NCBI GenBank assembly: GCA_003133325.1
Contig: PKXA01000119.1
Span: forward strand, 1 to 58,375
Direction: 5' to 3'
From: Acidimicrobiaceae bacterium
GTDB taxonomy: Bacteria > Actinomycetota > Acidimicrobiia > Acidimicrobiales > RAAP-2
Length of the DNA: 58,375 bases
The notes under the pieces were generated by a model that saw only the letters and a list, made by a program, of their open reading frames with translations, was not told the DNA's origin and did not search any database. This document shows, piece after piece, positions 30,459 through 58,375 of this stretch. Position numbers and translations under genes: made by a program. Position 1 is the stretch's first letter. Each line of letters opens with the position of its first letter.

Positions 30459-30546
30459 CTCGCGCCACCGGTCCGAACAGCGATGCCGCTCATCATGAAC
30501 CGCGCCCAGGGTCGGCAGGCAACCTCGATTCCGGTGGATGCCAGCG

Positions 30547-41644: not shown

Positions 41645-41686
41645 AACTCGCCGAGCTTCAGCAGTAGGTGGCCTCAGCCGAACGAG

Positions 41687-42682
41687 TCAGCAGTGCGGGT
41701 GACAGAGGGTCATGAGGAACTCGTCGCCCTCGGAGGCCCACATCGAATCGATCACGAAACCGCACTCTTCCAACTCCGCCTCGAGGGCGTCGGGGGTGAA
41801 CTTGGTGCTGATTTCGGTCAGCATCTCCTCGCCCGAGGCAAACGAGATGTCGAGGTCGAGATCGACCATGCGGACGGACTGATCGCTCATGGCCCGTAGC
41901 CACATCTCGATGCGCTGATCATCCTCGTTCCATTTGGCCACGTGCTCGAACTGGGAGGGATCGAAGTCGGCCCCCAACTCGCGGTTGAGCACATGGAGCA
42001 CATTCCGGTTGAACTCGGCGGTCACGCCGGCCGCATCGTCATAGGCATCGACCAGGCGCCCGCGGTCCTTCACCAGATCGGTGCCGATGAGAAGCCGGTC
42101 CCCGGCATCCATGACGCAGTCGAGGTCGACCAGGAACCGCTTGCGTTGGGCCGGATCGAGATTCCCGATGGTGCCGCCCAGGAACGCGAAGAGCCGACAT
42201 CCGCCGGTGGGCAATTGGTCGAGGTGGCGATGGAAGTCACCCACCACCGCGGACACCACCAGACCCGGATAGTCCTCGGCCAGAGCGGTGGCCGCGGCCC
42301 ACAGGGTGGTATCGCTCACGTCGAGGGGAATGTAACGGGCCAGACGACCGGTGGCCTGCATGGCATCGAGAAGGACCCGTGACTTCTCGCAGGTACCGGC
42401 CCCCAACTCGACAAGGGTGTCGGCGTCGGACAGATAGGCCATGTCCTTGGCGTGGGTATCGAGGATCCATCGCTCGGAGCGGGTCGGGTAGTACTCGGGA
42501 AGCCGGGTGATCTCGTCGAAGAGCCGGCTCCCCCGGTCGTCGTAGAAGTAGACGGGAGGCAGTCGCTTGGGGTCGGCGGTGAGACCGGTGCGGACATCGT
42601 GTTCGAGGGCGTTCCGGAGATCGACATCGGAAAGATGGACATCGAGGGTCGGGGCGATGGGCGCGGGGTCGAGAGTTGTCAT
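41687..42682 (-). CDS. egtD: L-histidine N-alpha-methyltransferase EgtD
   Basis: EgtD trimethylates histidine to hercynine, the first step of ergothioneine synthesis. The 331-residue product has PVYFYDDRGSRLFDEITRLPEYYPTRSE, the SAM motif LVELGAGTCEKSRVLLDAM, FLGGTIGNLDP, and VLHVLNRELGADFD, all standard for EgtD. The start codon is 20 bases behind the egtB stop, on the same strand, so the two form one operon. Ergothioneine is a thiol antioxidant, in keeping with the sigR/rsrA pair in this genome. Confidence 0.95.
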   Translation of the reverse strand: MTTLDPAPIAPTLDVHLSDVDLRNALEHDVRTGLTADPKRLPPVYFYDDRGSRLFDEITRLPEYYPTRSERWILDTHAKDMAYLSDADTLVELGAGTCEKSRVLLDAMQATGRLARYIPLDVSDTTLWAAATALAEDYPGLVVSAVVGDFHRHLDQLPTGGCRLFAFLGGTIGNLDPAQRKRFLVDLDCVMDAGDRLLIGTDLVKDRGRLVDAYDDAAGVTAEFNRNVLHVLNRELGADFDPSQFEHVAKWNEDDQRIEMWLRAMSDQSVRMVDLDLDISFASGEEMLTEISTKFTPDALEAELEECGFVIDSMWASEGDEFLMTLCHPHC

Positions 42683-42701
42683 AGATGTATCACCGTAGGG
42701 C

Positions 42702-43976: not shown

Positions 43977-44872
43977 AGCTGCTCCTCAGCGGTCGTATCA
44001 AGGGTCGAAACGGACGCCCTCGGGCCTGAGGGCCCCGTCTCTCTTTGAACTTACCCGGTAGAGGTCCGTTTCAAGCACACCCGTGGATGATCCCGGCTGG
44101 TGATCGCAGTCAGGCGAGCGCCGGAGAGGCCGGACACAGGGGAACATGACCCTGCGAGCCGGCGGTGGGAATCGGGCACTTCGGATCATCTTCCATCGAA
44201 ATCAGCACCAACGGCAACCCGACCGGGGGCCCCACGATGTCGTCACCATCGAATCGGGGTCATATCTCGAAGTCGGACACAGGTCACCACCGTTTCGGTC
44301 CACAAACATCACGTCGGCCGGCACCAACGGAGGACGTGATGGCCCCATGAGGTGGCGGGGCCGCCCCTGGCTCGGCCAAGCCAGGCGAGTACACGGCCGC
44401 GACGAAAGCCCGGCCATGACGGCCGTGACTTTCGACAACGGAGAACGACCGAGGAGTCAGGAAGCGGACCCCACCAGATCCGCTGACCGGCACCCGGGAG
44501 GAACAGCCACCGGGTCGCCCCAGACCGAACGCGAGTCCGAACCCGCCTCGTCCGCCGTCGCAGCCAACGCCCGGGTCCGGCGCCGACCCGGGACCAGCAG
44601 AGCGGCCACCGCCCCGATGATCACTACGCCCGCGCCGACCTGTGTGCGTTGTGGACGGGAGATTCAGTGCCGGTCCTCCTGCGTCAGCGGGACCATGCCC
44701 GTGAGCACGGCCAGAGCGACCCGCGTCAGGCTCTTCGAGGGCCTCGGCGCCAGAGCAGCGGAGGAGGGGACTTGACAGCGATCCTACGTATAACCCCGGG
44801 ACGGCAAAATGCCTGAAAAGTCTGCGAGCCGACACGTCTGTGCACTGGACTCAACTCTGCGCTACTCACCCT
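43977..44872. other. 896-base gap between egtB and the alcohol dehydrogenase gene
   Basis: Several long frames occur on both strands but none has a convincing domain. The only recognisable part is a short minus-strand frame (44457-44663) that resembles the end of a transporter. The stretch must carry the egtB promoter. It looks like decaying sequence. Confidence 0.5.
44457..44663 (-). pseudogene. Possible C-terminal remnant of an MFS transporter
   Basis: The minus-strand frame reads QVGAGVVIIGAVAALLVPGRR followed by RTRALAATADEAG and a stop at 44457-44459. One hydrophobic helix that ends in a Gly-Arg-Arg-Arg cluster is typical of the last membrane segment and tail of drug-efflux MFS proteins. 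Upstream a TGA closes the frame at 44664-44666, and no further helices are present. The call is weak. Confidence 0.28.
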
Positions 44873-45925
44873 CTAATGGATGAGGACCTTGAGCGTGTCG
44901 TGCTCCGCTGCATGCCCGAAGACGTCATAGGCCTCCAGCATCTGGTCGAACGAGAACTGGTGCGTGACGAACTTCTCGGCAGGAAGCTTGTGCTCGGCAA
45001 CGAGCTTCAGCAGCATCCCGAGGGTGTTCGTGTTCACAAGGCCCATCGAGATGTCGATGTTCTTGATCCAGAGCTCGTTGAGGGCGAGGTCGACCGACTT
45101 GCCGTGCACACCGATGTTGGCGACGTTGCCTCCCGGGCGGACGATGACCGTCGCCATGGTGAAGGTCTCGGGCACCCCCACCGCCTCGATGGCGACGTCG
45201 ACGCCGAGGCCGTCCGTCAGCGCGAGGACCTGGTCCTTCCAGTCCGGATCACCCGAGTTGACCGTGTCGGTGGCACCGAAGTCGGCGGCCCGGGCGAGCC
45301 GAGCGTTGTCCAGATCGATGGCGATGACCTTCGACGGCCCGTAGAGCCGTGCTGTCATAACGGCGGAGAGACCGACGGGCCCGGAACCGATCACCGCGAC
45401 TACATCGCCCGGGGCCACCCGTCCGTACTGCACGCCGATCTCGAAGCCGGTCGGCAGGATGTCCGAGAGCAGGATGCCCTCGGCATCGGTCATGCCTTCG
45501 GGGACCTTGTATACCGAGTTCTCGGCGAACGGGACCCGAACGTATTCGGCCTGCGTCCCGTCGATCATGTAGCCAAAGATCCACCCGATACCCGCCATGC
45601 CTTCCGGATCGAGGCAGTGGCTGTAAAGGCCCTTGCGACAGTTGGAGCATCGCCCACATGAACTCACGCACGCGAGGATGACCCGGTCTCCGACAGCCAG
45701 TTGCGTGACCCCGGACCCGATCTCGATGATCACCCCGATTCCCTCATGGCCCAGCACTCGGCCGACCTGCACCTCGGGGACATCGCCCTTGAGAATGTGA
45801 AGGTCTGTGCCACAGATCGTGGTGGCGACCATCTTCACGATCACATCGGTCGATTGTTGGATCGTCGGGTTCGGTACTTCTTCCCAGCCCTTTTGACCAG
45901 GACCCTTGTAGACCAGTGCCTTCAT
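44873..45925 (-). CDS. Zinc-dependent alcohol dehydrogenase (medium-chain family)
   Basis: The 350-residue protein has catalytic zinc ligands Cys 38 (TTICGTDLHILKG), His 60-Glu 61 (GRVLGHEGIGVI), the structural zinc set Cys 90, 93, 96 and 104 (CVSSCGRCSNCRKGLYSHC), and the NAD-binding VVAVIGSGPVGLSAVMTARLYG followed by VIAIDLDNARLARAADFGA, with Asp after the second strand pointing to NAD. It resembles broad-substrate secondary alcohol dehydrogenases. An AGGAGGT ribosome site lies close before the ATG. It stands alone. Confidence 0.93.
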   Translation of the reverse strand: MKALVYKGPGQKGWEEVPNPTIQQSTDVIVKMVATTICGTDLHILKGDVPEVQVGRVLGHEGIGVIIEIGSGVTQLAVGDRVILACVSSCGRCSNCRKGLYSHCLDPEGMAGIGWIFGYMIDGTQAEYVRVPFAENSVYKVPEGMTDAEGILLSDILPTGFEIGVQYGRVAPGDVVAVIGSGPVGLSAVMTARLYGPSKVIAIDLDNARLARAADFGATDTVNSGDPDWKDQVLALTDGLGVDVAIEAVGVPETFTMATVIVRPGGNVANIGVHGKSVDLALNELWIKNIDISMGLVNTNTLGMLLKLVAEHKLPAEKFVTHQFSFDQMLEAYDVFGHAAEHDTLKVLIH

Positions 45926-46539
45926 GACGGACCTCCTGCAGTGGGTAATCCGAGCAGCGCCTTGCGACTCGCGAGACCGGCATCCACGTGATGGCGGGCG
46001 GGCCGGTCTCCACGGCCGAGGCTACGGACTGCGCAATTTGCCGGCTAGGGCCGAATGACCCATCGGCCGTTCAGCCACGGTGGACCCCACGCATGATGGC
46101 CCATCCACCTGTACCGGCTATGGGCCGTGACCGCCAGCAGCATCTCGAGTCCGCTTCAGATGGTGGGTTGGCCGTGGTGTCAATGTGACCGCTCATGTGC
46201 AGGACCGTTCCAGGCGTCACGGAAGATTGTTCACTGAACCGGAGCAGAATCCGGCTGTTGGCGCTCTGAACTGGGGGTTCACGGTCCCAAGCCAGTATCA
46301 GGCGCCCCGCAGGAGACATGGGTTAGTTGAATGCTGTCCAACCCCGGGAACTGGGGGATGGCGGCAGAGGATGGCCCATGGTTCAGTGGCCGTTCCGTAC
46401 CGCTGGGATCAATGCACCATCCCCCACGGCACCGGCGCTGGCCCCACCGAGGAAGCGAGTTTGCTATTGGCTAACCCGCCTCAAACGGCACTTGCGGGAT
46501 ACCCCTCGGCATCGTCCGGACCGTCGTAGCGTCTCTACC
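45926..46539. other. 614-base gap between divergent genes, with one copy of a 65-nt dispersed repeat
   Basis: The gap lies between the alcohol dehydrogenase (minus) and the hydrolase (plus). Apart from the 65-nt repeat at 46310-46374 I see no gene; frames reaching into the hydrolase have no family content before about 46540. Confidence 0.5.
46310..46374 (+). repeat. 65-nt dispersed repeat, copy A (possible structured RNA element)
   Basis: This copy begins caggagacatgggttag and ends ggcggcagaggatgg. It matches copy B at 58311-58375 without gaps at 57 of 65 bases. A hairpin CCCCGG-GAA-CTGGGG can form; in copy B the same place reads CCTCGG-GAA-CCGGGG, so substitutions on both sides keep the stem through wobble pairs. 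Substitutions show no codon-position bias, so it does not look coding. It ends about 165 bases before the hydrolase start. Confidence 0.75.
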
Positions 46540-47229
46540 GTGAAGGAGATGTCCGGCGTCGAGGTCAACGGTATTGAATTGGCGTATACCGTCGCAGGAG
46601 AAGTCGGACTCTCTCCGGTGGTGCTACTCCACGCTCTTGGCGAGGACAGTCGTGGCTGGGGCATGGTGGCCGAGGCACTGGCCCCGATGTACCGGGTGTA
46701 CTCAGTTGACCTGCGTGGCCACGGATCCAGTTCGCGGCCAGGGGACTACTCGCTGGAGCTGATGTGCTCGGACGTGCTCGGGCTTCTTCGCACTCTCCAT
46801 CTCGAAGAGGTGACCTTGATCGGGCACTCCCTCGGTGGTGCGGTGGCCTACCTGGTTGCGGAGGCTGAACCGGGAATGGTCAGGCAACTGGTACTGGAGG
46901 AACCGCCACCGCCTCTTCCTGCGACGCCACCGAGAGTGGTGCCGAGGAAGCCCTCGGAACCGCTGCCGTTTGACTGGCGGGTGCTGGACGCCATTGCTCA
47001 CCAACGCAATCACCCTGACCATGCCTGGTGGGAGGACCTGAACCTCATCACCGCACGCACCCTGGTCATCGCCGGCGGAACCGACAGCCATCTTCCACAA
47101 GACCAGATCGCTACCCTCGCTGGCCGCATCCCCGACTCGATGCTGGTAACAATCCATGCCGGGCACAACGTACACACCACTCGCCCGGACGAATTCCTCG
47201 CCGAGCTGCTTCCATTCCTGGCCCGGTAG
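46540..47229 (+). CDS. Alpha/beta hydrolase
   Basis: The product of about 229 residues has the alpha/beta-hydrolase series: VNGIELAYTVAGEVGLSPVVLLHALGEDSRGWGMVAEAL, YSVDLRGHGSSSRPGDYSLE, the nucleophile elbow LIGHSLGGAVAYLVAEA, an Asp segment LVIAGGTDSHLP and the final His in HAGHNVHTTRPDEFLAELLPFL. Ser, Asp and His of the triad are all present. The substrate is unknown. The start may be GTG 46540 or ATG 46549; an AAGGAG stands directly against the latter, too close to be ideal. The open frame reaches upstream over repeat copy A without family sequence. Confidence 0.85.
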   Translation: MKEMSGVEVNGIELAYTVAGEVGLSPVVLLHALGEDSRGWGMVAEALAPMYRVYSVDLRGHGSSSRPGDYSLELMCSDVLGLLRTLHLEEVTLIGHSLGGAVAYLVAEAEPGMVRQLVLEEPPPPLPATPPRVVPRKPSEPLPFDWRVLDAIAHQRNHPDHAWWEDLNLITARTLVIAGGTDSHLPQDQIATLAGRIPDSMLVTIHAGHNVHTTRPDEFLAELLPFLAR

Positions 47230-47311
47230 GTGCCTGACTGGAACGCCGGTTCAGGCCCCACTGCGACGCTTATGCAATGCGTCGGGGCAACGAGTTCGCA
47301 AGGCAAAATCG

Positions 47312-47824
47312 ATGGACATCGACGTTCGCAGAGCTACCACCAACGACCTTCCGGAAGCAATAGACATTCTGGCGGAATGCTCGGCATGGTTGAAAGCGAA
47401 GGGGATTGCTCAGTGGCCAGATCGCTTTCCCGAGAGCATCCTTCTTACCTCGATCGAGAAAGAGAACCTGTTCGTTGCCACTGATTCCGGTGAGACCGTG
47501 GCGACCATCACGCTGCAGTGGGCTGATGCCATGTTCTGAGGGGACTGCCACGATGCCCGGTTCGTCCACCGCTTGGCCGTTAGAAGGTCCCATTCCGGCC
47601 TAGGTCAGGTGCTCATCGAATGGGCGCACCAACAAGCGGAGACCCACGGCAAGCAGTATCTTCGCCTTGATTGTCTCAGGGACAACCTCCGGCTCTGCCG
47701 CTACTACGAGGACCTGGGATTTCGGAGAGTTGGTTTCTTGGATGGTCCCGAGGATCATCCGCATACCTCTGCGCATGGTGGATGGCGTGCAGCGCTGTAT
47801 GAGCGACCAGTCTCAGAGTCCTGA
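47312..47824 (+). pseudogene. GNAT acetyltransferase interrupted by an in-frame TGA where Trp is expected
   Basis: The frame starts IDVRRATTNDLPEAIDILAECSAWL and runs to TLQWADAMF, then TGA (47537-47539), and continues in the same frame with GDCHDARFVHRLAVRRSHSGLGQVLIEWAHQQA, LRLDCLRDNLRLCRYYEDLGFRRVGFL up to a stop at 47822-47824. The two halves make one complete GNAT protein of about 170 residues; at the TGA, relatives of this subfamily have a Trp in an F-W-G context. A single TGG to TGA change explains the break. No frameshift is present. Either a young pseudogene or a gene read through the TGA. Confidence 0.8.
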
Positions 47825-47946
47825 GGGGAGAACATGCATCCAATCGAATATGCGGCAGAAATCCCAGAACAATGGGAGGCCGGGACGCCCGGGTGCCCCC
47901 CTGCGGCACATTCGGGATAATAGAGAGATGCCACCTTGGGAATGCT

Positions 47947-48540
47947 ATGAACGTGCGGGTGAAGGCCCAGTCCTGGAAACTCGCCGCTGGCTTCACGGCG
48001 TTGTCGGTGGCGCTGGCCATCGTGATCGTGATCGTGATCGGTGGGCCCGCCCCGGCGAGCCAGAGCCTCTCGGCCGAGTTGCGGGCCAATGCCTCTCGCC
48101 TCGCGACCCTGTCCCGCGAGCTCCCAGCCATCGGGGTGGGCCTCCAGCACGGCCTGGATCCGACGCGGCTACGGGAGCTGCAGGCGTTCGTTCACGACTT
48201 CGAGGCGACCTGCCGTAGCGAGGCGGCGGCGATCTCCAGGCTCGAGCACCGGGCCGCCACCGGTGAGGAAAGCCGGCCCCCCGCGGCCCTCACAGCCGAC
48301 ACGGAGTCGGAGGGGGACGTTCAAGAACTCCAAGGCGACCGAGCCGCACTGAACTCCATCGAGCAGGAGTCGCACAGCGAACAGGCGAGCCTCACGCAGT
48401 ACAGCTCGTCGATCAAGGATGAGACCAAGTCACAACAGTCAACCGTCAACCAGACGAACGAAGCGGTGACACAGCAGGCGAACCTAGCGTCCTCGCTCAT
48501 CCAGGAGCTCTCGGACCTCCTGTCTTCCATCTTCCGCTGA
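47947..48540 (+). CDS. Membrane-anchored helical protein of unknown function
   Basis: From the ATG at 47947 the product has 197 residues: a short basic start, one hydrophobic segment (AAGFTALSVALAIVIVIVIGG, residues about 13-33), then a long, mostly helical polar region rich in Ser, Gln, Glu and Ala (LSAELRANASRLATLSREL, EQESHSEQASLTQYSSSIKDETKSQQS) that should form a coiled coil outside the membrane. It ends SLIQELSDLLSSIFR. One cysteine only. I do not recognise the family. Confidence 0.62.
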   Translation: MNVRVKAQSWKLAAGFTALSVALAIVIVIVIGGPAPASQSLSAELRANASRLATLSRELPAIGVGLQHGLDPTRLRELQAFVHDFEATCRSEAAAISRLEHRAATGEESRPPAALTADTESEGDVQELQGDRAALNSIEQESHSEQASLTQYSSSIKDETKSQQSTVNQTNEAVTQQANLASSLIQELSDLLSSIFR

Positions 48541-48906
48541 GGCGCCCGTCCTCCCGCCCCTGACCAATCGGTTCGCGGCGTAGCCCGCATCGCCTGACGC
48601 CGAGCCTGCTTGCCACACGCGACCGCGCCTGACCTGCCGATATGCGCTGCGGCCACGATGTCGACGACCGTGTGACGCGTTGTTCGGGAGCTGATTGGAT
48701 CCGCGATCGCCGGTCCGGGTGTGGTCGACGGCGCTGAAATCACCGGGTGCCGATTGGGGATCTGTGTGGTTTGCTGTCGGAGAAGGCGCCTTCCCGTGAA
48801 TGCTCCTTCTGCATGCGCCCGAACGAACCAGCCTCATGAGGATCAACCCACCTCGCAGTTTCTTGATGAGTAGCCTGGCATCAGCGCAACATCAGGAGCC
48901 GTTCAC
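48541..48906. other. 366-base gap with one copy of a diverged 45-50 nt repeat
   Basis: No gene is supported. The segment around 48643-48687 resembles 49406-49456, in the next gap. The rest shows nothing recognisable. Confidence 0.5.
48643..48687. repeat. Diverged repeat, copy 1 (upstream of the VOC gene)
   Basis: The stretch tgcgctgcggccacgatg..gacgaccgtgtgacgcgttgttcgg is matched at 49406-49456, with substitutions and a short insertion. GCCTGA also occurs a little upstream of both copies. Each copy lies 150-220 bases before a small stand-alone gene. Confidence 0.55.
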
Positions 48907-49305
48907 ATGCGTCCGATCTTTCATCCTTCTTTTCCGGTAGCCAATCTCCAAGAGGCCATTGACTTCTACACGAAGGAGTTGGGTGCAGAGATCGGCCGCC
49001 AGAGCAGCGCAGTTGCAGATGTTCTGATCTTCGGGGCCCAGGTGACCCTTCACAATGATCCTTCTATCGCTGGCCAGCCTGTTGTGCGGAGCAGGCATTT
49101 CGGTGCGACCCTCGACTGGAATGAATGGGAGGCGATTGTGGCTCGATTCAGCGGAGCCCCGCATGTGGTTGAACCACCAACGATCTCGTATGAAGGTGAA
49201 CCGACCGAACAGGGCAAGATGATGATCTCAGATCCCAGTGGAAACCTGGTTGAAATGAAGGCGTATCGCCACCCTGAGATGGTGCTCCGATCACTTGCCG
49301 GCTGA
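48907..49305 (+). CDS. VOC (glyoxalase/bleomycin-resistance) family protein
   Basis: The 132-residue product has the two beta-alpha-beta-beta-beta units of the VOC fold: FHPSFPVANLQEAIDFYTKELGAEIGR at the start and KMMISDPSGNLVEMKAY near the end, with a glutamate at the usual metal position (NLVEMK). VOC members range from lyases and dioxygenases to drug-binding proteins, so the reaction cannot be named. The gene stands alone in a row of small enzymes. Confidence 0.85.
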   Translation: MRPIFHPSFPVANLQEAIDFYTKELGAEIGRQSSAVADVLIFGAQVTLHNDPSIAGQPVVRSRHFGATLDWNEWEAIVARFSGAPHVVEPPTISYEGEPTEQGKMMISDPSGNLVEMKAYRHPEMVLRSLAG

Positions 49306-49610
49306 TTCCCCTGTCGGCCACCAAGGCGGTCCGCTCGGTTTGGGGCACGCCGTGTACTGCCTGACGTCAGCTGTGCGAGTGCACGCGTAGGTGCCTGATT
49401 CGTTCTGCGCTGCGGCCGCGATGGTGACGACCGTCTGTTATGACGCATCGTTCGGTGCGCACAACTAACCTCCTGACGATCCGCTGAAAACTGAGAAGCG
49501 TGGCTTCGGACTGATCTAACTCATCGATTTGACACCTGCCCCAGAACAATGCCGGGAAGCAGACTTGGTTCAAGTGAGGAAGTCGTCGCGCAACACCAGG
49601 GGGAACGAAC
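49306..49610. other. 305-base gap with the second copy of the diverged repeat
   Basis: No gene is supported. It holds the repeat copy at 49406-49456 and the arms tgtgcg (about 49374) and cgcaca (about 49458), which could pair around it. Confidence 0.45.
49406..49456. repeat. Diverged repeat, copy 2 (upstream of a GNAT gene)
   Basis: It matches 48643-48687 over tgcgctgcggcc, gacgaccgt, tgacgc and gttcgg blocks, with a six-base insertion. It lies about 155 bases before the GNAT gene at 49611. Confidence 0.55.
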
Positions 49611-50102
49611 GTGACCGATGTCCGGCTGAGAGCGGCCACCGCCAGCGACGCTGAGTTTCTTGCCGAGATGTTGGCCGTAGCAATTGACTGGCGGCCAGGT
49701 GCTAGCCCTCGCCCCGTAGCCGACCTGATGGACATGCCGGATGTCTGGCACTACATCGATGCCTGGCCCCAGCAATCGGATTTCGGCTTGTTTGCGGAGA
49801 TCGACCAACCGGTTGGCGCTGCTTGGTGGCGATACTTCACCGCTGCTCAACCCGGCTATGGATTCACTGACGAAGCGGTTCCGGAGATCTCCATCGGTGT
49901 CGCCAATGGTTACCGGGGACGGGGAATCGGACGGAGACTCCTCCTCGGCCTGATCGCCGAAGGAAGCAAGCGTGGCATTCCTGGCCTCGGCCTGAGCGTC
50001 GAGCCAGACAATCCTGCCCTGCGGCTCTACGAACGACTCGGCTTCAAAGCCGTCGGTGGCACCGGCGGATCCGTCACTCTGTTCCTGAAACTCGACGACT
50101 AG
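49611..50102 (+). CDS. GNAT family N-acetyltransferase
   Basis: The 163-residue product has the acetyl-CoA loop GVANGYRGRGIGRRLLLGLIAEGSKRG (R-x-x-G-x-G/A type motif A) and the C-terminal LSVEPDNPALRLYERLGFKAVGG, both typical of GNAT enzymes. The N-terminal half, DVRLRAATASDAEFLAEMLAVAIDWRPG, is the usual beta1-alpha1 start. The acceptor is unknown. GTG start with an aacgaac context and no strong ribosome site. Confidence 0.9.
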   Translation: MTDVRLRAATASDAEFLAEMLAVAIDWRPGASPRPVADLMDMPDVWHYIDAWPQQSDFGLFAEIDQPVGAAWWRYFTAAQPGYGFTDEAVPEISIGVANGYRGRGIGRRLLLGLIAEGSKRGIPGLGLSVEPDNPALRLYERLGFKAVGGTGGSVTLFLKLDD

Positions 50103-50145
50103 CCCCGGTGGCGGTGGTAGCCCCTACCGGCAATGAAGGATGGTC

Positions 50146-50652
50146 CTACGCCTGCCGGGCTTCCTTCACGGCCATGGGCACCTGCCCGAGATACAGACGG
50201 GATCCCTCGGCTTCCGGCTCGAACCCGAGAGATGTGTAGAGCCGGTGCGCCCCGTCGCTCGAATGCCGATTGTGCGACAGAAGCTGAACCTTGTTACAGC
50301 CCGCCGACCGCATGTCCACCAGGATGCGTTGGAGAAGGGACGTGGCAACTCCCTGGCGCCGACACGAATGAGCAACAACCACCGCTTCGATGATCGCTGT
50401 CGGAGCGCACGCGTAGGTGATGTTGGGGAAGATCATCGACGATGCTGTACCGACAGCGTCCCCGTCCATCTCTGCCAGGTAGACGAACAGTCCGGGCACT
50501 TCAAGCATGTGCGCCCACGTTCGGATTTCGATTTCAGAGGCCCCCGTTGGGCGCCGTCCATCCGCATCACGAAGAGCATGGACCCCGAGGACAGCAAGAA
50601 GGTCACCAGGGAGGGCGGTACGCACCGTGAATCCCGAACCAGCGGTTCTCAC
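50146..50652 (-). CDS. GNAT family N-acetyltransferase
   Basis: The 168-residue product shows FTVRTALPGDLLAVLGVHALRDADGRRP at the start, IIEAVVVAHSCRRQGVATSLLQRILVDMRSAG with the CoA loop RRQGVA, and NRHSSDGAHRLYTSLGFEPEAEG. This is a complete single-domain acetyltransferase with unknown acceptor. It is convergent with the GNAT at 49611 and only 43 bases separate them. The third GNAT of the region (47312) is broken. Confidence 0.88.
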   Translation of the reverse strand: MRTAGSGFTVRTALPGDLLAVLGVHALRDADGRRPTGASEIEIRTWAHMLEVPGLFVYLAEMDGDAVGTASSMIFPNITYACAPTAIIEAVVVAHSCRRQGVATSLLQRILVDMRSAGCNKVQLLSHNRHSSDGAHRLYTSLGFEPEAEGSRLYLGQVPMAVKEARQA

Positions 50653-50800
50653 ATCACAATCCAGTCACCATGCTCTCCAACGGTCGCAGAGACGGTGGGA
50701 TAGGACGGCAGGAGTGGGAGATACCCTCCCCCGGCATCGCCTGGACCGTGGCAACCTCTCCAATGCCCAAGGGATGGTCCGGTGATGATGTACGGGCCCT

Positions 50801-51499
50801 TCAATTCCGCTGCCCCACATGAGGATTCGCTTGAAGGGATAGAGGTAGGGCGACCGGTCGCCGAGGACGGCGAGCAGGCACTCCGAGTGCGCCCGACGGG
50901 TCATTGGCCCGGCACATCACGATGAACAAGTTGGCACCGATGCCGTTGGAGGTGAACCATTTGTAACCGTTGATCACCCACTCGTCGCCATCCCGTACTG
51001 CTTCGGTCTCGATGGAGCGGAGATCCGAGCCCGCGTGGTCACGCTCAGTCATCGAGAAGCCGGACTCCATCTCTCCTTCGATGTGCTGGAGCAGCCATTT
51101 CCGCTTCTGCTCTTCGGTGCCGTACTTGACCAGGATGCTGGCATTCCCCGAGTTGGGGGTGGCGATGCCGAACAGGGTGGCCGCTCCGACGGCGTAGGCA
51201 AGGATCTCGTACATGTAGGCCAGGGCCAGAAAGTCGAGGCCCATCCCGCCGCACTCCTTGGGCAGGTGCGGTGCCCACAGGCCCGCCTCATTGACCTTGG
51301 CCTTGATCGTCTCCCGCAGCTCGATGCTTTGCTGACGACCGGCCTTGCGGTCGTCGTCGGTGAGGTCGTTCCCCAGGCGTGTCTGCCACAGGATCTCCTC
51401 GTTGGGCAGTATCTCGGCATTGATGAAGTCGGCGGTCCGTCGGCGGAGGGCGTTGATCTCAGGGTCCAAGCCGGGGGTGGGCGTCACGTTGATCGCCAT
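50801..51499 (-). pseudogene. Truncated acyl-CoA dehydrogenase (N-terminal half only)
   Basis: From the ATG at 51499 the frame matches an acyl-CoA dehydrogenase start: ADFINAEILPNEEILW, LWAPHLPKECGGMGLDFLALAYMYEILAY, GTEEQKRKWLLQHIEGEMESGFSMTERDHAGSDLRSIETEAVRDGDEWVINGYKWFTSNG, then VMCRANDP at about 50907. After that the sequence is unrelated and ends after about 30 codons. The C-terminal helical domain with the catalytic base is missing, so it cannot be active. Behind the break another frame reads HSECLLAVLGDRSPYLYPFKR, apparently from a different gene. Confidence 0.8.
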
Positions 51500-51620
51500 T
51501 GCGGTCCCCTTGGTTGCGTCCGGGCGTTCGCATCCCATCATGGTGCAGCCAGCTCGCCGACGACGGACGGAGGCGCCACGGACGCCGAGCGCGGGTAGCC
51601 CGCTCGTCGTCGAGGCCGCT

Positions 51621-53867
51621 CTACGACGTCGGGCTGGTCAGGTCGTAGATGGTCGCTCCGTTGACCGTCCTGGCCGTGTAGTGGCTACTCACCCAGGTGG
51701 AGATCTGCGAAGACGGCGAGGTCCCGGTGGAACTGCCGCCTCCAGCGCCTCCAGCGCCACCGAGGCCGACTCCACCACTGATGTAGAAGTGGATCCGCCC
51801 CTCGGCCACGTACTTCTGAAACTGGGCCAGGGTGGGGGCCGGGTCGGTCCCGTTAAACCCGCCGATGGCCATCACGGGATCGCCGGTGGCCAACTGGTAG
51901 CCCGAAGCGGTGTTGGAACCAGTCGCGGCCGCCACCCATGAGTACCTGGAGGCGTTCGCACTGAGCAGCGCGGTCAGCTGCTTGCCCGGAGCGGATGCGT
52001 TGAGCAGTCCTCCGGCAGCGCCACCGCCGAAGCCGCCGGCTCCACCGGGAGGACCGGCTGTGCCCCCGCCGGCCCCGGTCCCTCCACCGGGGAAGGCACC
52101 ACCGAGGCCACCGGCGCCGCCGTTCTTAAACGAGCCCGGCGGGACCTTGAGCCCCTTGGGCAGCTTGGTCCCGTTGGGCAAGGTGAAACCAGGAGGCAGG
52201 GTGATGCCGTTGCGGGCGATGTTCTGACGGAACTGTCCGGCCCCGCCGGTTCCGCCAAACCCGCCTGGGAAGCCACTGGCACCCTGAACGGCCGGGCCTG
52301 CGGACGGGATAGGACTACTGCTCGGCGTGGCGGCTGTGGTAAGTGAGTAGGCGGAGGGTCCGGCCAACACCGAGGCGATGCCGAATCCGGCGAGGCCGGC
52401 GGCCAGGACGCCTCGCGCCTTGGGGAGCAGCGCTATCGCCGCTGCACCGAGCACGCCCACCACCACGATCACCCAGCGAAGGGCCGGATACCAGTCGGGA
52501 CTCCAGCCCAAGATGACGAACGCCCAGGCGATGGTGGCCACGATGGCCACAGCCAGGGCGGCGCGCGGGAAGAGCTCCTGGCGACGCAGCCAAAGGGTCG
52601 AGCCTCCCATGCCCACCAGGGCACCGATGGCCGGAGCCAGGGCCACCGTGTAGTACGGATGGATGATGCCCTGCGCCAGGCTGATGGTGGCGCCTGTCAG
52701 GAGGAGCCATCCTCCGAAGATGAGGAATCCGGCTCGGACTCGGTCGGTCCTCGGGGTCCGTCGGGTCAACCACAAGACGGCGACCAGGCCGATCAGAGCG
52801 CCGGGGATGAGCCAACTGATCTGTCCTCCCATCTCGCGGAGGAACAGACGGTTCCATCCGACGGGGCCCCACATACTTCCGGCCGTGCCTCGGCCTCCAA
52901 CGCTTCCAACTTCGTTGCCGGTCAACCGGCCGAAGCCGTTGTAGCCGAAGATGAGATTGAGCAGGTTGTTGTCAGTGGACCCACCGACATAGGGACGGTC
53001 AGATGCCGGAGTCAGCTGCACGATGGCCACCCACCAGCCGCCGGCCACCATCAGGGCCACGCCTGAGTAGATGACCTGGACGATGCGTCGGCCGAGTTTT
53101 GGCGGTCCGGCGAGCAGGTAGACGAGGGCCAGCACCGGCATGAGTATGAGTGCCTGCATCATCTTGGTGATGAAGCCGAACCCGATGAGCGTGCCGGCCA
53201 GCACCATCCATCGGCTCCGACCATGTTCGATGGCCCGGATGGTGGCGTAGGCGGCACCGGTCAGCAGAAGGGTCAACAGCGCGTCGGGGTTATTGAACCG
53301 GAACATCAACGTGGCCACCGGCGTGAGGGCCATGGCGGCACCGGCCAGGATGGCCGCGCCCGGGGCGAACCACCGGCGGACGCAGGCGTAGACCAGGCCC
53401 ACTGTGGCCACGCCCTCGAGGGCCTGGGGCACCAGGATGCTCCACGAGTTGACCCCGAAGATGCGGGCCGAGATCTCCATCACCCACAGGGAGGCGGGGG
53501 GCTTGTCCACGGTGATGAAGTTGGACGCGTCAGAAGAACCGAAGAAGAAGGCCTTCCAGCTCTTGGTCCCGGCCTGGACTGCGGCGGAGTAGAAGCTATT
53601 GCCCCAGCCGGACTGATCGAGGGCCCATAGGTAGAGGAAACCGGTGCCGACCAACAGCGCGATGAGGGCGGGGCGTACCCACACCGGGTCGTCGGGCCGG
53701 CCCCGCACGAGACGCATCCGTCTGCTTGCGGGCGGCGAGGTTGCGGGCGGCTCGGCTGAAGCCAGGTCGTCAGGATGATGTTGATGGTGCGGCCGGATGA
53801 CAGGTTCCTGCACCAACGTGTCGGTGCCGGGGGAGGGAGCCTCCCCGGTCAGTTGGGTGTCGCTCAT
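51621..53867 (-). CDS. Membrane glycosyltransferase of the GT39/ArnT (PMT_2) type with a Gly-rich insert
   Basis: The 748-residue protein has about ten or more membrane helices. After a polar N-terminal tail it shows LWALDQSGWGNSFYSAAVQAGTKSWKAFFFGSSDASNFITVDKPPASLWVME, the GT-C loop with acidic residues typical of PMT_2 enzymes, then FRFNNPDALLTLLLTGAAYATIRAIE. These enzymes move sugars from polyprenyl-phosphate carriers to acceptors outside the membrane. Residues about 530-640 are a striking Gly/Ala/Pro-rich stretch, followed by a small extracytoplasmic domain. It overlaps the GT2-GtrA gene by four bases and so is the last gene of a four-gene operon. Confidence 0.88.
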   Translation of the reverse strand: MSDTQLTGEAPSPGTDTLVQEPVIRPHHQHHPDDLASAEPPATSPPASRRMRLVRGRPDDPVWVRPALIALLVGTGFLYLWALDQSGWGNSFYSAAVQAGTKSWKAFFFGSSDASNFITVDKPPASLWVMEISARIFGVNSWSILVPQALEGVATVGLVYACVRRWFAPGAAILAGAAMALTPVATLMFRFNNPDALLTLLLTGAAYATIRAIEHGRSRWMVLAGTLIGFGFITKMMQALILMPVLALVYLLAGPPKLGRRIVQVIYSGVALMVAGGWWVAIVQLTPASDRPYVGGSTDNNLLNLIFGYNGFGRLTGNEVGSVGGRGTAGSMWGPVGWNRLFLREMGGQISWLIPGALIGLVAVLWLTRRTPRTDRVRAGFLIFGGWLLLTGATISLAQGIIHPYYTVALAPAIGALVGMGGSTLWLRRQELFPRAALAVAIVATIAWAFVILGWSPDWYPALRWVIVVVGVLGAAAIALLPKARGVLAAGLAGFGIASVLAGPSAYSLTTAATPSSSPIPSAGPAVQGASGFPGGFGGTGGAGQFRQNIARNGITLPPGFTLPNGTKLPKGLKVPPGSFKNGGAGGLGGAFPGGGTGAGGGTAGPPGGAGGFGGGAAGGLLNASAPGKQLTALLSANASRYSWVAAATGSNTASGYQLATGDPVMAIGGFNGTDPAPTLAQFQKYVAEGRIHFYISGGVGLGGAGGAGGGSSTGTSPSSQISTWVSSHYTARTVNGATIYDLTSPTS

Positions 53868-55267
53868 GAAGGTGTCCTCGTCGTTTCTTGTGCGTGGAGG
53901 TCGTTGTCAACGTCAGTGGTGAGAGCGACCGGAGCCAGGTGGGTTCCAAAGTCCGGACGGAAGACCCAGGTGCGAAGGATGCCGAAGCGGATGATCGCCG
54001 CGGCAACGTTGGCCGCGGTTACCGCCACCAGCTCGGGAAGCAAGGTGGTGAGCCCGACCGCCCGGGTGACGGCCAACGCTCCGGTGGTGAAGGCAAGACT
54101 GATCCCGAGCAGCGCCGCCGCGGTGAGCACCCGGTGCGGGCGGTCGAGACCATGACGGGCGGAGTCGGCCATGCCCCGGTGGGCGGCGGTGTTGCCCAGG
54201 CTGCACAGGACGATGGCCACGGCATTGGCCGTGTAGCCGCCCAGACCCGACTCCATGGCCGCGAACAGGGCGAGATAAGCCACGGTGCTGACGGCGCCCA
54301 CCCCGGCAAAGCGGAGGAGCTCGTGGGCAAACACCTCGTCGGCAGTCACACCGGAGCGGCGACCCACTCGACGAGATCCGCCCGGTGACCGATCATCCGA
54401 GGACAACCCGGAAGCCGGCACAGGGGTGACGGCGTCCTGCGTTGCGGGGGCCTGAGGCGAGGGACCGGAAGGCTGCTCGGTCGCCGGTCGGGCCGAGCGC
54501 AGGATGGCCCGTTGTCTCGAAGCCGGTCCGAGCATGCGGCACACCCCGCGGACATCCATCCACGCGGTGCGGGCGACATCGACCCGCGAGTCGAGATCGT
54601 CGACCCAGTCCACCGGGACTTCGTGGATTCGCAGGCCGATTCGCTGGGCCGTGACCAACACCTCGGTGTCGAAGAACCACTCGTTATCCTCCACCAGGGG
54701 GAGCAGCTCGACCGCGGCGTCACGACGCAACGCTTTGAACCCGCACTGCGCGTCGGAACAGGTACTGCGGAGCGCGGACCGCAGGAGCAGGTTGTAGCCG
54801 CGGGAGATGAACTCCCGCCGAGTGCCCCGGACGACGTGCGCTCCTGCGGCCAGGCGGCTTCCGATGGCAAGGTCGCTGTGACCCGACAGGAGCGGGGCAA
54901 CCAGGGGAAGGAGTGCGTCGAGGTCGGTGGCGAGATCTACGTCCATGTAGGACACCACGGTCGCCGTGCTCTGCGACCATGCGGCCCGGAGAGCGCGCCC
55001 CCGGCCCTTCTGGTCGAGATGGATGGCGTCGACCAGGGGAACGCTGTCGGCCAGCTCGGTGGCCAGCCTCCAAGTGTCATCGGTGCTGGCATTGTCGACG
55101 ATGGTGATGGTGGCGACGAAGGGAAACGATCGGTCGAGATAGGAGCGGAGCGTCGAGATGCTGGTGACCAGCTGCTCGGCCTCGTTGTACACCGGGATCA
55201 CGATGTCCACGTCGGACGAGTGCCGGGTCTCGTTTCGGAGATTGTTCGAGATGGGGATCACGCTCAT
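53864..55267 (-). CDS. GT2 glycosyltransferase fused to a GtrA-like membrane domain
   Basis: From the ATG at 55267 the product has 467 residues. The N-terminal GT2 part (VDIVIPVYNEAEQLVTSISTLRSYL, VDNASTDDTWRLATELAD, QKGRGRALRAAWSQSTATVVSYMDVDLATDLDALL with the DxD motif, GSRLAAGAHVVRGTRREFISRGYNLLLR) is the polyprenyl-phosphate sugar synthase kind. A Pro/Ser-rich linker leads to a GtrA domain with four helices (ELLRFAGVGAVSTVAYLALFAAMES to AAIIRFGILRTWVF), thought to flip lipid-linked sugars. The next gene, a GT39 transferase, could use that sugar donor, so the pair makes and uses one lipid-linked sugar. Confidence 0.92.
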   Translation of the reverse strand: MSVIPISNNLRNETRHSSDVDIVIPVYNEAEQLVTSISTLRSYLDRSFPFVATITIVDNASTDDTWRLATELADSVPLVDAIHLDQKGRGRALRAAWSQSTATVVSYMDVDLATDLDALLPLVAPLLSGHSDLAIGSRLAAGAHVVRGTRREFISRGYNLLLRSALRSTCSDAQCGFKALRRDAAVELLPLVEDNEWFFDTEVLVTAQRIGLRIHEVPVDWVDDLDSRVDVARTAWMDVRGVCRMLGPASRQRAILRSARPATEQPSGPSPQAPATQDAVTPVPASGLSSDDRSPGGSRRVGRRSGVTADEVFAHELLRFAGVGAVSTVAYLALFAAMESGLGGYTANAVAIVLCSLGNTAAHRGMADSARHGLDRPHRVLTAAALLGISLAFTTGALAVTRAVGLTTLLPELVAVTAANVAAAIIRFGILRTWVFRPDFGTHLAPVALTTDVDNDLHAQETTRTPS

Positions 55268-55406
55268 GGCAGTCACTGTGCACCCCGGCCTTGTGAGCAC
55301 CTTGAGAGCCACCTGTGAGGATCGTAAGAATTCAGGCCCATCGCCGGCTGGAAATCCGATCGGGACCCTCTCGCATCGTCTACGGCACCGTGGCCGTGCA
55401 CGGGAG

Positions 55407-56969
55407 TCATCGTTCGGCGTCCGGCTCCGGTGCACGGTCCTGGTCGGGCGTCGACTCGGGCGCGGGGGGCGTGGATGGGAGGTGTACGACGAACGTGGTC
55501 CCCACACCGGGGCGTCCGTCAGCTGAGACGGTGCCTCCGTGGGCGGCCACGATGGCACTCACGATGGACAGGCCAAGTCCGGCCCCTCCGTGCAGACGAG
55601 ACCGCGAGGGATCGGACCGGTAGAAGCGCTCGAAGATGTGGGCGGCCTCGTCTGGCTCCATGCCGGGGCCGTCGTCGGCCACGGTGATCAGCGCCCCGTC
55701 GGCTTCGGCTTCCACCGACACTCGGGTGGTCGTGCCGGCCGGGGTGTGTGCCCGAACATTGCCCAGCAGGTTGTCGACCACCTGACGAAGACTGGTGGCG
55801 TCACCCATGATCTCGATGGGTTGGGAGGCGTCGAAGGTCAGGGGCCAGTTGGGCCCCACGGTCCCTGCGGTGTGGACGGCCTCGGCGCACAAGGCGACCA
55901 GGTCGACCGAGCGCTGCTCCATCGGTCGGCCCTCGTCGAGGCGGGCCAGCAGCAGGAGGTCGGCCACCAGACGTTCCATGCGCGTGGTCTCGCCGCGGAT
56001 GCCGCCCATCAAGCGCTCGAGGTCTTCCTTCTGTTCCGACGCTCCCCGCCCGAACAGTTCGGCATAGGCGGAGATGGCGGCGATCGGGGTACGCAGTTCG
56101 TGCGACGCATCGGCCACGAATCTCCGGAGTCGCTGCTCCGAGGCCCGCAGGCGCCGTTCGGACGCCAGGCGGGCGCTGAAGGCAGACTCGATTCTGGTCA
56201 GCATGACGTTGAGGGTTCGAGCCAGGCGACCCACTTCGGTCTGTTCGTTCTCCCCGGGAACCCGCTCGGTCAGGTTTCCGGCCGCGATGGACTCGGCCGA
56301 TCGCTCCATGTCGCGAAGAGGTCGAAGCCCGATCCGTACCAGCCACAATCCACCGATGAGAGCCACGATCACAGCACCGCCGGTCACCGCCAGTTCGACG
56401 AGCAGGAGATGGTGCAGCGTGCTCACCGCGGCATCCAAAGGCTGGGCCACGATCAGGATGTCTCCGTTGTTGAGGGTGGAGGCGCGGACTCGGAAGACGG
56501 GACCGCCTTGTTCGGTGGCCGGGGCGTCGAAGTAGGCAACCTGCGTGCCGCTCTCGGCTTTGGAGAATCCGGTGATCACCGTGGGCACCAGGGGCAGGTA
56601 GTTACTCCCGTTCCGGTACGCCGCGCAGCTCTGGCCGTTGACCACGCCGCCGCCGGGGGCTCGGACCTCGACGGCCAAGGCGCCGGTTACGTTGGACGGG
56701 GGCTGACCGGCATCGGGACCAGACGACAGAGCGGAGGACGCGGTGCTCGGGTTGGTAAACGGGACGGGGGCGAAGCAGAGCGAGCCTCCGGGAAAGGACT
56801 GGCCGTTGTTGGCGGCTGCCTCGAAACCGCCGTGCGCCTGGTCGAGCTGTTGGTCGGCCTGCTGATAGAGGAACGATTCGAGGTACCGGTAGGTGGCGAC
56901 ATCGGCGAGGGAGAGCGCCACGATGGCGATGACCCCGATGGCAACCAACAGACGGGTACGGAGTGACAT
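55407..56969 (-). CDS. Sensor histidine kinase
   Basis: The 520-residue protein has an N-terminal membrane helix (LLVAIGVIAIVALSLADVATYRYLE), an extracytoplasmic sensor part of about 150 residues with two cysteines, a second helix (residues about 188-212), HAMP (GLRPLRDMERSAESIAAGNLTERVP), HisKA with the phosphorylated His 290 (FVADASHELRTPIAAISAYAELFG), and an ATPase domain (DNLLGNVRAHTPAGT, VADDGPGMEPDEAAHIFERFYR, GAGLGLSIVSAIVAAHGG). It is encoded three bases behind the response regulator, so they are partners. The signal is unknown. Confidence 0.95.
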   Translation of the reverse strand: MSLRTRLLVAIGVIAIVALSLADVATYRYLESFLYQQADQQLDQAHGGFEAAANNGQSFPGGSLCFAPVPFTNPSTASSALSSGPDAGQPPSNVTGALAVEVRAPGGGVVNGQSCAAYRNGSNYLPLVPTVITGFSKAESGTQVAYFDAPATEQGGPVFRVRASTLNNGDILIVAQPLDAAVSTLHHLLLVELAVTGGAVIVALIGGLWLVRIGLRPLRDMERSAESIAAGNLTERVPGENEQTEVGRLARTLNVMLTRIESAFSARLASERRLRASEQRLRRFVADASHELRTPIAAISAYAELFGRGASEQKEDLERLMGGIRGETTRMERLVADLLLLARLDEGRPMEQRSVDLVALCAEAVHTAGTVGPNWPLTFDASQPIEIMGDATSLRQVVDNLLGNVRAHTPAGTTTRVSVEAEADGALITVADDGPGMEPDEAAHIFERFYRSDPSRSRLHGGAGLGLSIVSAIVAAHGGTVSADGRPGVGTTFVVHLPSTPPAPESTPDQDRAPEPDAER

Positions 56970-56972
56970 CTC

Positions 56973-57674
56973 CTAGGCCGCGACGGGTTCACGTAGTGCG
57001 TACCCGACCTGACGGACCGTATGGATGACCGGAGGGCCGACCGCTTCGAGCTTCTTGCGGAGATAGCTGACGTAGGTCTCGACCACGTTGCCGCCTCCGC
57101 CGAAGTCGTAGTGCCACACGTGGTCGAGGATCTGGGCCTTGGACAACACGTGGCGCGGGTTGAGGAGGAAGAAACGAAGCAGGTTGAACTCGGTGGCCGT
57201 GAGGGCGACGGGCTGACCGGCCCGAGTCACTTCGTGGGCGCTCTCGTCCATCTCGATGTCGGCAAAGCGGAGGATGCCCTCGCCTTCGGGTTCGCTGCCG
57301 ATGCGGCGGAGGATGGCGTGGACCCGGGCCACGATTTCGGCCAGGGCGAACGGCTTGGTCACGTAGTCGTCGCCGCCCACGGTAAGGCCGGCGACCTTGT
57401 CCTCGATGGCGTCGCGGGCGGTGAGAAACAGAATGGGCACCCGGATGCCATCGGCACGCAGGCGACGGGTGACTTCGAGCCCGTCGAGATCGGGCAGCAT
57501 CATGTCGAGCACGATCAGGTCGGGCGGATTCTCCTGCGCGGCGGACAGGGCGAGGCGACCATTGACCGCCTCGTCGACGCCGAAGCCCTCATAGCGAAGC
57601 GACGTTGCCACGGCATCGACAATGGACGGTTCATCGTCGACCACCAGAATTCGCTCGGTGCGAGTGGGTTCCAC
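56973..57674 (-). CDS. OmpR/PhoP-type response regulator
   Basis: The 233-residue regulator has a receiver domain (ILVVDDEPSIVDAVATSLRYEGF, phosphorylated Asp 57 in PPDLIVLDMMLPDLDG, and the conserved Lys in DDYVTKPFALAEIVARV) and a C-terminal winged helix (LTATEFNLLRFFLLNPRHVLSKAQILDHVWHYDFGGGGNVVETYVSYLRKKL). Wording is close to the TcrA/MprA/TrcR group of actinobacteria. It heads the operon with kinase, GT2-GtrA and GT39 genes, so it probably controls cell-surface glycosylation. Repeated TGACCTG sites lie upstream. Confidence 0.94.
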   Translation of the reverse strand: MEPTRTERILVVDDEPSIVDAVATSLRYEGFGVDEAVNGRLALSAAQENPPDLIVLDMMLPDLDGLEVTRRLRADGIRVPILFLTARDAIEDKVAGLTVGGDDYVTKPFALAEIVARVHAILRRIGSEPEGEGILRFADIEMDESAHEVTRAGQPVALTATEFNLLRFFLLNPRHVLSKAQILDHVWHYDFGGGGNVVETYVSYLRKKLEAVGPPVIHTVRQVGYALREPVAA

Positions 57675-58310
57675 AGACCTTCTCCTTCTGTCACACCTTC
57701 ACCGCAGTTGACCTGCGAGTTCCTCCAGCATCGCACCGCACGTTGGACACGAGGTGTGATCCGGCTGTGAGTCTCCTGTGAACCAACCAGGCATACCAGG
57801 CACACATGAGCACCTTTCACAGGTAACTCCCAGCTGACCTGAAACTGATTCTGCAAACCACCCTGTCCAATGGAGTCACCAGAGCGGAGCATCGCACTGA
57901 CCGGACCCCAATGAATGGTCCACCTGACCTGTTTCAGGGGATCAGGTCAGCGTCCCGTAGGCCCCGCCCGTGGAAGATTCTCGTATGGGGCCGTCAATCG
58001 GGACGGGCAGCGAATTGACGCAGACCTTGAGCATTTGCTTCCGCCAGCCAAAGGGCCCACAGGCGGCCACGCATAATGACGCCCCGCACGACCACCTACC
58101 CGGCTCACAACGCACGCCGAACCGGCGGTCTGAGCGGCAACTGCTTACGGCCACGAGCTTCCCCGGTTGGGATGGGATTGGCGGGCTCTCGATCTGTGCC
58201 TCGCTTGAGGCGAGCAATACATTATGGAAACGGGGATCCGGAGAGTTTCGCGATATCCAGGGCCACTGACCTGCACTTTTGCTGAAAGAGGAAGCGGGAA
58301 GACAGCGCGC
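57675..58310. promoter_or_regulatory. Upstream region of the two-component operon; no gene seen
   Basis: No supported gene lies in this 636-base stretch. It contains TGACCTG at 57709-57715, 57835-57841 and 57925-57931 and its complement CAGGTCA at 57943-57949. Between 58000 and the window end I see only the second copy of the 65-nt repeat. Confidence 0.5.
57924..57950. promoter_or_regulatory. Inverted repeat CTGACCTG-N11-CAGGTCAG, candidate operator
   Basis: Two perfect eight-base arms (57924-57931 and 57943-57950) around 11 bases. The spacing from arm to arm (19 bases from start to start) is near two helical turns, and the half-site TGACCTG recurs twice nearer to the regulator gene. It fits a binding site of a dimeric regulator; a hairpin terminator is the alternative. 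Confidence 0.5.
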
Positions 58311-58375
58311 CAGGAGACATGGGTTAGCTGAACCCTCAGCAACCTCGGGAACCGGGGGATGGCGGCAGAGGATGG
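58311..58375 (+). repeat. 65-nt dispersed repeat, copy B (cut by the window end)
   Basis: The copy begins caggagacatgggttag and ends ggcggcagaggatgg exactly at the last base, so it may go on. It matches copy A (46310-46374) at 57 of 65 bases, in the same orientation. Here GGTTAGCTGA can pair with TCAGCAACC (one bulged A), and CCTCGG-GAA-CCGGGG forms an alternative hairpin that shares bases with it. Confidence 0.75.

Follow-up and report, generated by a model that had tools for sequence, protein, structure and literature searches.

In this study, we used sequence comparison to follow up a 65-nt direct repeat in the window, by which we mean the whole 58,375-nt stretch analysed here, an entire contig (C52) of a 133-contig Acidimicrobiaceae genome (G000; other G-numbers, such as G001, G004 and G008, denote relatives, C-numbers contigs and L-numbers fetched loci). 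With a probability of about 0.86, we interpret this repeat as a chimeric attachment site belonging to an array in which non-autonomous mobile units stand in tandem, joined by site-specific recombination. Each unit would carry an R module at its start, of which there are several types, R1 being the commonest, and an L module at its end, and a site-specific recombinase would act across an overlap of 8 nt to link the two ends of a unit together, or to link them with the ends of other units or with a chromosomal target. The primary target (attB) would be the Walker B codons (DEAWAI/LSN) of a chromosomal VirB4-like gene, with at least one secondary target having similar arms, and repeated insertion would build up arrays that run head to tail and whose cassettes are acquired and shuffled; within the window, one such cassette of 12,001 bp would lie between the two copies of the repeat. 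In the copies compared, we found module boundaries, arrays running in one direction, reordered cassettes, a target both empty and occupied, and one secondary target. From these we infer a tyrosine recombinase acting in trans, a circular intermediate and present-day activity.

Copies and anatomy of the attachment site

The preliminary description of the window, made from its letters alone, had paired positions 46310-46374 with 58311-58375, and these copies are indeed identical at 57 of 65 positions, without gaps, in the same orientation and 12,001 bp apart. It had proposed searching for further copies in the same genome and in relatives, and these are present: BLAST with the 65-mer finds 14 places in G000 at E≤0.01, the window pair included (28 at E≤10), so that the repeat is not a product of chance, and a sequence-only profile built from 18 copies finds 101 matches at E≤0.01, spread over 8 genomes of a single family. 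G000 holds 31 of these and seven relatives hold 29, 14, 11, 6, 5, 3 and 2, the relatives having been picked because they already matched, after a first look that scores 150 candidates per genome. A refined profile run on the fetched loci gave 81 matches, of which 78 could be anchored on the core and 3 could not; among the 78 is one misplaced anchor, L113, which is a fragment of a left module that has no core and was kept in the counts below.

The limits of the repeat, in contrast to its existence, had been drawn too narrowly. Around copy A, the shared sequence extends over roughly 46230-46498; for copy B, whose right part is cut off by the contig end, it begins near 58056. Judging from these alignments, the 65 nt are the middle of a larger, chimeric attachment site composed of an L module (the right end of one unit), an 8-nt overlap and an R module (the left end of the next), with the following parts in the window:

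46230-46333, + strand: L module of copy A, closing the upstream unit on the right and ending in ...GAGACATGGGTTAGTTGAATG (46230-46330 is 90% identical to G000:C101; copy alignments)
46310-46322, + strand: left arm of the outer inverted repeat, CAGGAGACATGGG (offset scan, 40 R1-like sites)
46334-46341, + strand: 8-nt overlap of copy A, CTGTCCAA, the putative crossover region (module boundary in copies and at split-gene joints)
46342-46498, + strand: R1 module of copy A, with which the 12-kb unit begins (157 nt at 91.7% identity to the R1 module found at the VirB4-like gene split in G004)
46342-46356, + strand: inner hairpin CCCCGG-GAA-CTGGGG at the start of R1 (stem exceeds shuffles)
46375-46387, + strand: right arm of the outer inverted repeat, CCCATGGTTCAGT (offset scan)
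46342-58342, + strand: predicted 12,001-bp unit (cassette) between crossovers, one of 29 core-to-core intervals
58056-58334, + strand: L module of copy B, closing the 12-kb unit on the right (93% identity between 58056-58375 and G004:C107 475-794)
58335-58342, + strand: 8-nt overlap of copy B, CTCAGCAA, an octamer shared with the empty target of G000 itself
58343-58375, + strand: R1 start of the next unit, cut by the contig end

To the left of the core, L modules end, for example, in ...GAGACATGGGTTTACTGAATG or ...GAACCCTGGTGTAACTGATTG, and their homology commonly spans from about -207 to the end of the overlap. Copies agree through the overlap and then switch. Among 75 right sides compared, 67 group with another, namely, 47 of type R1 (including two VirB4-like joints, in G004 and G008), 8 of type R2, 5 that are the second half of a VirB4-like gene, 3 of type R3 and two further groups of 2 each. 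The overlap mostly follows CTSWSSAA, the pattern CTS-WSS-AA being found in 55 of 76 sites (2 of the 78 were filtered out), and 37 of these 55 hold AGC or TCC, the serine codons of the intact target genes.

R1-like sites (n = 40) carry two inverted repeats. The outer one peaks at +33 in an offset scan, with 7.1 of 13 matches compared to a mean of 3.4 over offsets, and reaches 7.65 when small shifts are allowed, compared to 5.5 (maximum, 6.0) for shuffled arms. The inner one has a mean stem of 4.7 compared to 3.5 in shuffles, and is the hairpin CCNCGG-GAA-CYGGGG of the preliminary description, which exists as an inverted repeat of the DNA in R1 sites. Covariation at the RNA level is unsupported. 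The arms of L and R at one joint did not pair better than permuted ones (P = 0.12, 38 sites), nor did those within units (P = 0.27, 19 units), and the overlaps of successive joints were no more alike than expected (P = 0.79, 29 comparisons). The imperfect inverted arms around a 6- to 8-nt overlap by which tyrosine-recombinase core sites are recognised are found in the intact targets, where the dyad at offset +6 is best or joint best among offsets 0 to 9 in 10 of 10 (homologous genes and, thus, not independent), and are weak in R modules.

Chromosomal targets

In five cases, the R side is an in-frame coding sequence for the portion of a VirB4-like ATPase downstream of Walker B (LSNLGVARWLQ...). 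The intact gene in G000 (C18) encodes 458 amino acids (aa) with weak matches, under the cut-offs, to the AAA_10 and TraG P-loop families, and is followed by a VirD4-like gene (T4SS-DNA_transf, 93 bits). It reads GACGAAGCCTGGGCGATC/CTCAGCAA/CCTCGGGGTC at the predicted target, compared to ...GCGATC/CTCTCCAA/R1 at the left joint of G004 and L...GAATC/CTCTGCAA/CCTCGGGGTC at its right joint. The two halves of the gene were found apart, cut at DEAWAI/LSN and bearing R-type and L-type ends, in G001, G004, G008 and G045; the left half carries R1 in G004 and G008, R2 in G001 (the stretch stops 27 bases into it) and a divergent end in G045. For G050, the right half was found behind an L module, the joint containing two N, and of the left half only a 61-residue piece was recovered. 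Among 150 genomes drawn from the family, 74 have the VirB4-like gene at E≤1e-30, and in 5 of these (G001, G004, G008, G045 and G050) the match begins past Walker B; the matches of G046 and G123 are partial, and the remaining genomes match from the first residue of the query. Empty and occupied targets in related genomes were thus found at the VirB4-like gene, a locus other than that of the window. In G000, this gene lies in a chromosomal cluster (L041, 2136-8125) that comprises a 465-aa protein without a Pfam match and EccE-like, VirB4-like and VirD4-like genes.

A secondary target was found in G000:C103, where an L module abuts the 3' portion of a recombinase gene. Intact relatives of this gene in G004 and G050 read GCCATC-GCCGCCCT-GCTCGG (with a GCTCGG or GCTCGGG-type right arm), and the joint keeps CTGAGCAA, as in units. 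The arms GCCATC-N8-GCTCGG resemble those of the VirB4-like target, GCGATC-N8-CCTCGG, with no match of the overlap being required. Together with the dyad at +6, this similarity of the target arms suggests that the enzyme is a tyrosine recombinase.

Arrays and cassettes

Sixteen contigs bear at least two anchored copies (45 copies in all, one of them a left-module fragment), none with mixed strands, and no anchored locus holds copies on both strands. The 29 core-to-core intervals range from 1,395 to 14,531 bp (median, 2,888 bp) and hold 1 to 13 genes, with one or two genes in 12 of 28 intervals and 3 to 13 in the rest. The same cassettes are met in varying order. One, a hydrolase cassette, shows 98% identity between G000:C102 and G001:C46 over 1,375 nt; the G001 contig begins where this alignment does, and the identity ends at the last base of the overlap. 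In G001:C46, this cassette is followed by one with a DUF3048 gene; in G000, a different cassette follows, and the DUF3048 cassette lies upstream. The DUF3048 cassettes of G000, G001 and G004 are 95 to 97% alike over 1.65 to 1.8 kb, the alignment beginning at most 30 nt from the crossover in both comparisons with G004 and extending into related L modules in the third.

Recombinase candidates

Genes were called with an open reading frame (ORF) caller of our own. The full tyrosine-recombinase motif was found in 5 of 431 called proteins of the array loci (55 of the 431 lie in the window), and a homology search added two fragments. Two homologous loci of G000, L080 (C11) and L081 (C65), carry a small AbrB/MraZ-like gene (weak matches) and a tyrosine recombinase gene, 85% identical over 1,743 nt, and C65 has a second such gene pair nearby. 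The block starts at CCTCCGACACCA, which in C65 is the 3' end of a tRNA-Leu gene, and at its other end lies a half site of array type, some 90 nt away from the recombinase gene. We rejected this module as the driver of the arrays because of its tRNA-Leu 3' start and its lack of relatives in most array-bearing genomes: at E≤1e-5, none was found in G001, G008, G014, G043, G050 or G057.

Tandem two-recombinase elements of about 2.5 kb were found in L102 (G004:C46, 6967-9464), L236 (G050:C79), L242 (G008:C29), L237 and L238. Related pairs occur in G004, G008 and G050, and in G000 at about 33 to 61% identity, that is, in the four genomes richest in copies. The R3 module of L033 holds a piece of the end of such an element near +225, and one R2-like fragment lies 1.7 kb from a recombinase pair (L237, 125-191). 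We consider these elements a less probable driver, because they end in terminal repeats of their own around GGATCACCCGTGT, the L profile has no match in 14 further loci fetched, and, at 45% identity, the recombinases fetched from G001, G014 and G043 (3 of the 3 matches listed for each) and from G057 (2 of 6) include no relative, one of those from G001, G014 and G043 being too short for the motif.

Weighing the explanations

The preliminary description, which our data support in part, had left open two options, a structured RNA element, such as a riboswitch or attenuator, and the end of a mobile element or a recombination site for the segment between the copies. The second was the right one and can now be narrowed to a chimeric attachment site, whereas we give almost no credence to a cis-regulatory RNA copied ahead of several genes. 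The sequence is conserved, non-coding and rich in inverted repeats, and folding with DNA parameters gave z scores of -1.5, -2.0 and -1.9 for three of four stretches in the sense of the copy. However, copy B scored -0.64 and opposite strands were about equal (-1.66 and -1.30), and three pairs predicted from 13 copies included none with a compensatory change. The first gene downstream of the core lies on the + strand in 34 cases and on the - strand in 34 (upstream, 27 and 33), so that a leader RNA or a promoter role is no general explanation, and the right half of the site is swapped for other, unrelated modules, including half of a protein gene. The short frame ATG-GGT-TAG behind AGGAG, which had been noted in both copies, is present there but not conserved, the two occurring together in just 4 of 78 anchored sites. 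At gathering scores, Rfam has no match in the window.

The tandem, same-direction cassettes of accessory genes, the two inverted repeats of R1 sites and the integrase gene of G000:C11/C65, with its attI-like half site downstream, also recall a true integron, or a cluster of attC sites lacking an integron integrase (CALIN), in which single-strand hairpin sites of an unusual attC type would be used by an IntI-type integrase. We consider this improbable: in G000, the genome searched, the IntI model TIGR02249 gave 37 matches with none over the cut-off, the two integrases beside a site scoring 26 and 25 bits against 265; RYYYAAC or GTTRRRY lies no more than 27 nt from the crossover in 6 of the 78 sites, compared to a mean of 2.8 (range, 0 to 9) in shuffles; and cassette genes lie in both orientations, with 1 to 13 of them per interval. 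Ends of an insertion sequence (IS) or miniature inverted-repeat transposable element (MITE), which a DDE transposase would have spread while duplicating 8 bp of target, are a shade less credible again. Eight similar bases do flank the insert in the VirB4-like gene, as the G004 joints illustrate, but the flanking octamers differ in 4 of 4 genomes in which both were read, arrays run strictly head to tail, identical codons are hit in five genomes, and there is no transposase in the 25 most frequent of the 125 Pfam families of the 104 cargo proteins (rarer families lie outside this view).

Several points weigh against site-specific recombination of mobile units as proposed here. No recombinase could be tied to the system; that of C11/C65 has close relatives just in G000 and G004, plus a 41-residue fragment in G003, and the position of the C65 block at a tRNA-Leu gene suggests that it has its own target. 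In R modules, the dyad is weak (mean of 2.6 of 8 at +6, with the next best offset at 2.3), and 11 of the 55 CTS-WSS-AA overlaps read AGG, which is not a serine codon. The far end of the DUF3048 cassettes has no recognisable canonical core, and long intervals may hold ordinary chromosome. In the window itself, similarity to G004 stops at 44174 with no visible core, so that the left limit is not an attB. The VirB4-like gene of G000 is intact despite some 30 copies in this genome, which means either that its arrays lie elsewhere or that the bin mixes strains. Finally, all genomes are draft metagenome-assembled genomes (MAGs), and many copies lie near contig ends.

Relation to known systems

A review on integrative and conjugative elements (ICEs) and integrative and mobilizable elements (IMEs) describes units without an integrase that keep attL/attR-type ends and stack in tandem in one target, as well as IMEs that insert in the virD4-type (traG) gene of ICEs (PMC5704250). 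The arrays described here share with such accretion of ICE/IME remnants, the cis-mobilizable elements (CIMEs), the tandem stacking, in one orientation, of units with shared end sequences at one attachment site. They differ in their many small units (1.4 to 14.5 kb), interchangeable left-end types and rare integrases, in having as a target the Walker B codons of a chromosomal VirB4-like gene, and in leaving one overlap octamer per joint. With integrons and CALINs, they share head-to-tail accessory-gene arrays parted by recombination sites and a varying cassette order, whereas they have no IntI over the cut-off, no attC core and no orientation rule, carry multi-gene cassettes and use a target inside a protein gene. 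In the way it works, the system resembles an accretion array and, loosely, also an integron lacking both the integron enzyme and the integron sites.

Cargo elements that tyrosine recombinases move, tycheposons among them, occupy specific chromosomal sites in environmental bacteria and use tRNA genes, whereas the target here lies inside a VirB4-like gene. Elements of the Tn916, CTnDOT and Tn554 type have variable overlap (coupling) bases that can derive from the element, and the overlap of our arrays likewise varies between sites and is apparently element derived at G000:C103. Those elements encode their own recombinase; the two-recombinase elements of the present genomes carry their own terminal repeats.

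More tentatively, and with rather more doubt than belief, we speculate that the arrays are an IntI-independent form of gene capture in Actinomycetota, in which cassettes with mosaic ends are gathered by a recombinase acting in trans at the Walker B codons of a chromosomal gene for a DNA-transfer-type ATPase, and in which the octamers at the joints record an earlier target. The last part of this idea is based on the target serine codons in 37 of the 55 overlaps, and leaves the AGG of 11 others unexplained. Integrons are nearly absent from Actinobacteria (PMC9024848), and the arrays provide a different means of stacking and rearranging accessory genes at a single place, in Acidimicrobiaceae MAGs from peat soil (bog and palsa samples). 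They interrupt a conserved VirB4-like gene at its ATPase motif in five genomes, and the site is specific enough to be searched for, with the comparison of empty and occupied targets making the mechanism testable. No title or opening of an abstract in the literature searched names this system, and none joins Acidimicrobiia, integron and attC; supplements and preprints lay outside that search.

In a wider set, a 69-nt version of the repeat matches at E≤0.01 in 13 of 100 genomes (G000 included) and in 7 of 60 genera, the weakest match being in another family. The exact 29-nt core pattern was found in 14 stretches among named species genomes, all of them MAGs of Acidimicrobiaceae or Acidimicrobiales (bog, palsa and Chersky), and in none of the viral contigs.

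Cargo of the arrays and of the window

At E≤1e-5, the 104 cargo proteins from across the arrays have matches in 125 Pfam families, of which TetR_N (7 members) is the most frequent; DUF3048 is counted twice among these families. Five of 109 listed proteins (the VirB4- and VirD4-like genes of G008:C196 and three others) were left out of the cargo set, and two members beyond the VirB4-like right half of G008, as well as those of the longest intervals, may not be cassette cargo. Judged by sequence similarity, the cargo includes relatives of defence proteins, with 12 PADLOC families at E≤1e-10 among the 104 proteins, such as MADS components, ThsA, ShosA, PsyrA, AriA and CapP. Relaxase or integrase remnants were not seen in the 25 most frequent Pfam families of these proteins, no search having been aimed at relaxases. 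A seven-gene cassette in L100 (G004:C107, 3978-8876) encodes a small ubiquitin-like protein (YukD match under the cut-off) and ORFs that, by eye, resemble E1, E2 and JAB proteins without a Pfam match, and is a possible defence operon.

The predicted 12,001-bp unit of the window carries the following genes:

46540-47229, + strand: alpha/beta hydrolase (Pfam Abhydrolase_1 on ORF 46327-47229; start from our gene call)
48907-49305, + strand: glyoxalase/bleomycin-resistance superfamily protein (Pfam Glyoxalase)
49611-50102, + strand: GNAT acetyltransferase (Pfam Acetyltransf_1)
50801-51541, - strand: probably broken gene for an acyl-CoA dehydrogenase that lacks the C-terminal domain (246 aa; Pfam matches limited to Acyl-CoA_dh_N and Acyl-CoA_dh_M)
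51621-53867, - strand: mannosyltransferase-like membrane protein (Pfam PMT_2 and YkcB_C)
53864-55267, - strand: glycosyltransferase family 2 (Pfam Glycos_transf_2 on ORF 53864-55558; start from our gene call)
55407-57674, - strand: histidine kinase (55407-56969) and response regulator (56973-57674) (Pfam)

Within this unit, two 37-nt direct repeats (48638-48674 and 49401-49437) are 84% alike, and positions 48708-48821 resemble part of an R3 module (69%). The left 44 kb of the window look like ordinary chromosome, with translations read by eye, and positions 41074-44174 are 94% identical to G004:C100. An alcohol dehydrogenase region (44842-46072) is 87% identical to G014, which belongs to another genus, compared to 68% identity to the best G014 match for the adjoining gene with an FGE-sulfatase domain, and was therefore apparently acquired. 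Further to the left, a tandem repeat with a 19-nt unit (30523-30656) lies beside a gene that resembles a polyprenyl synthase by eye.

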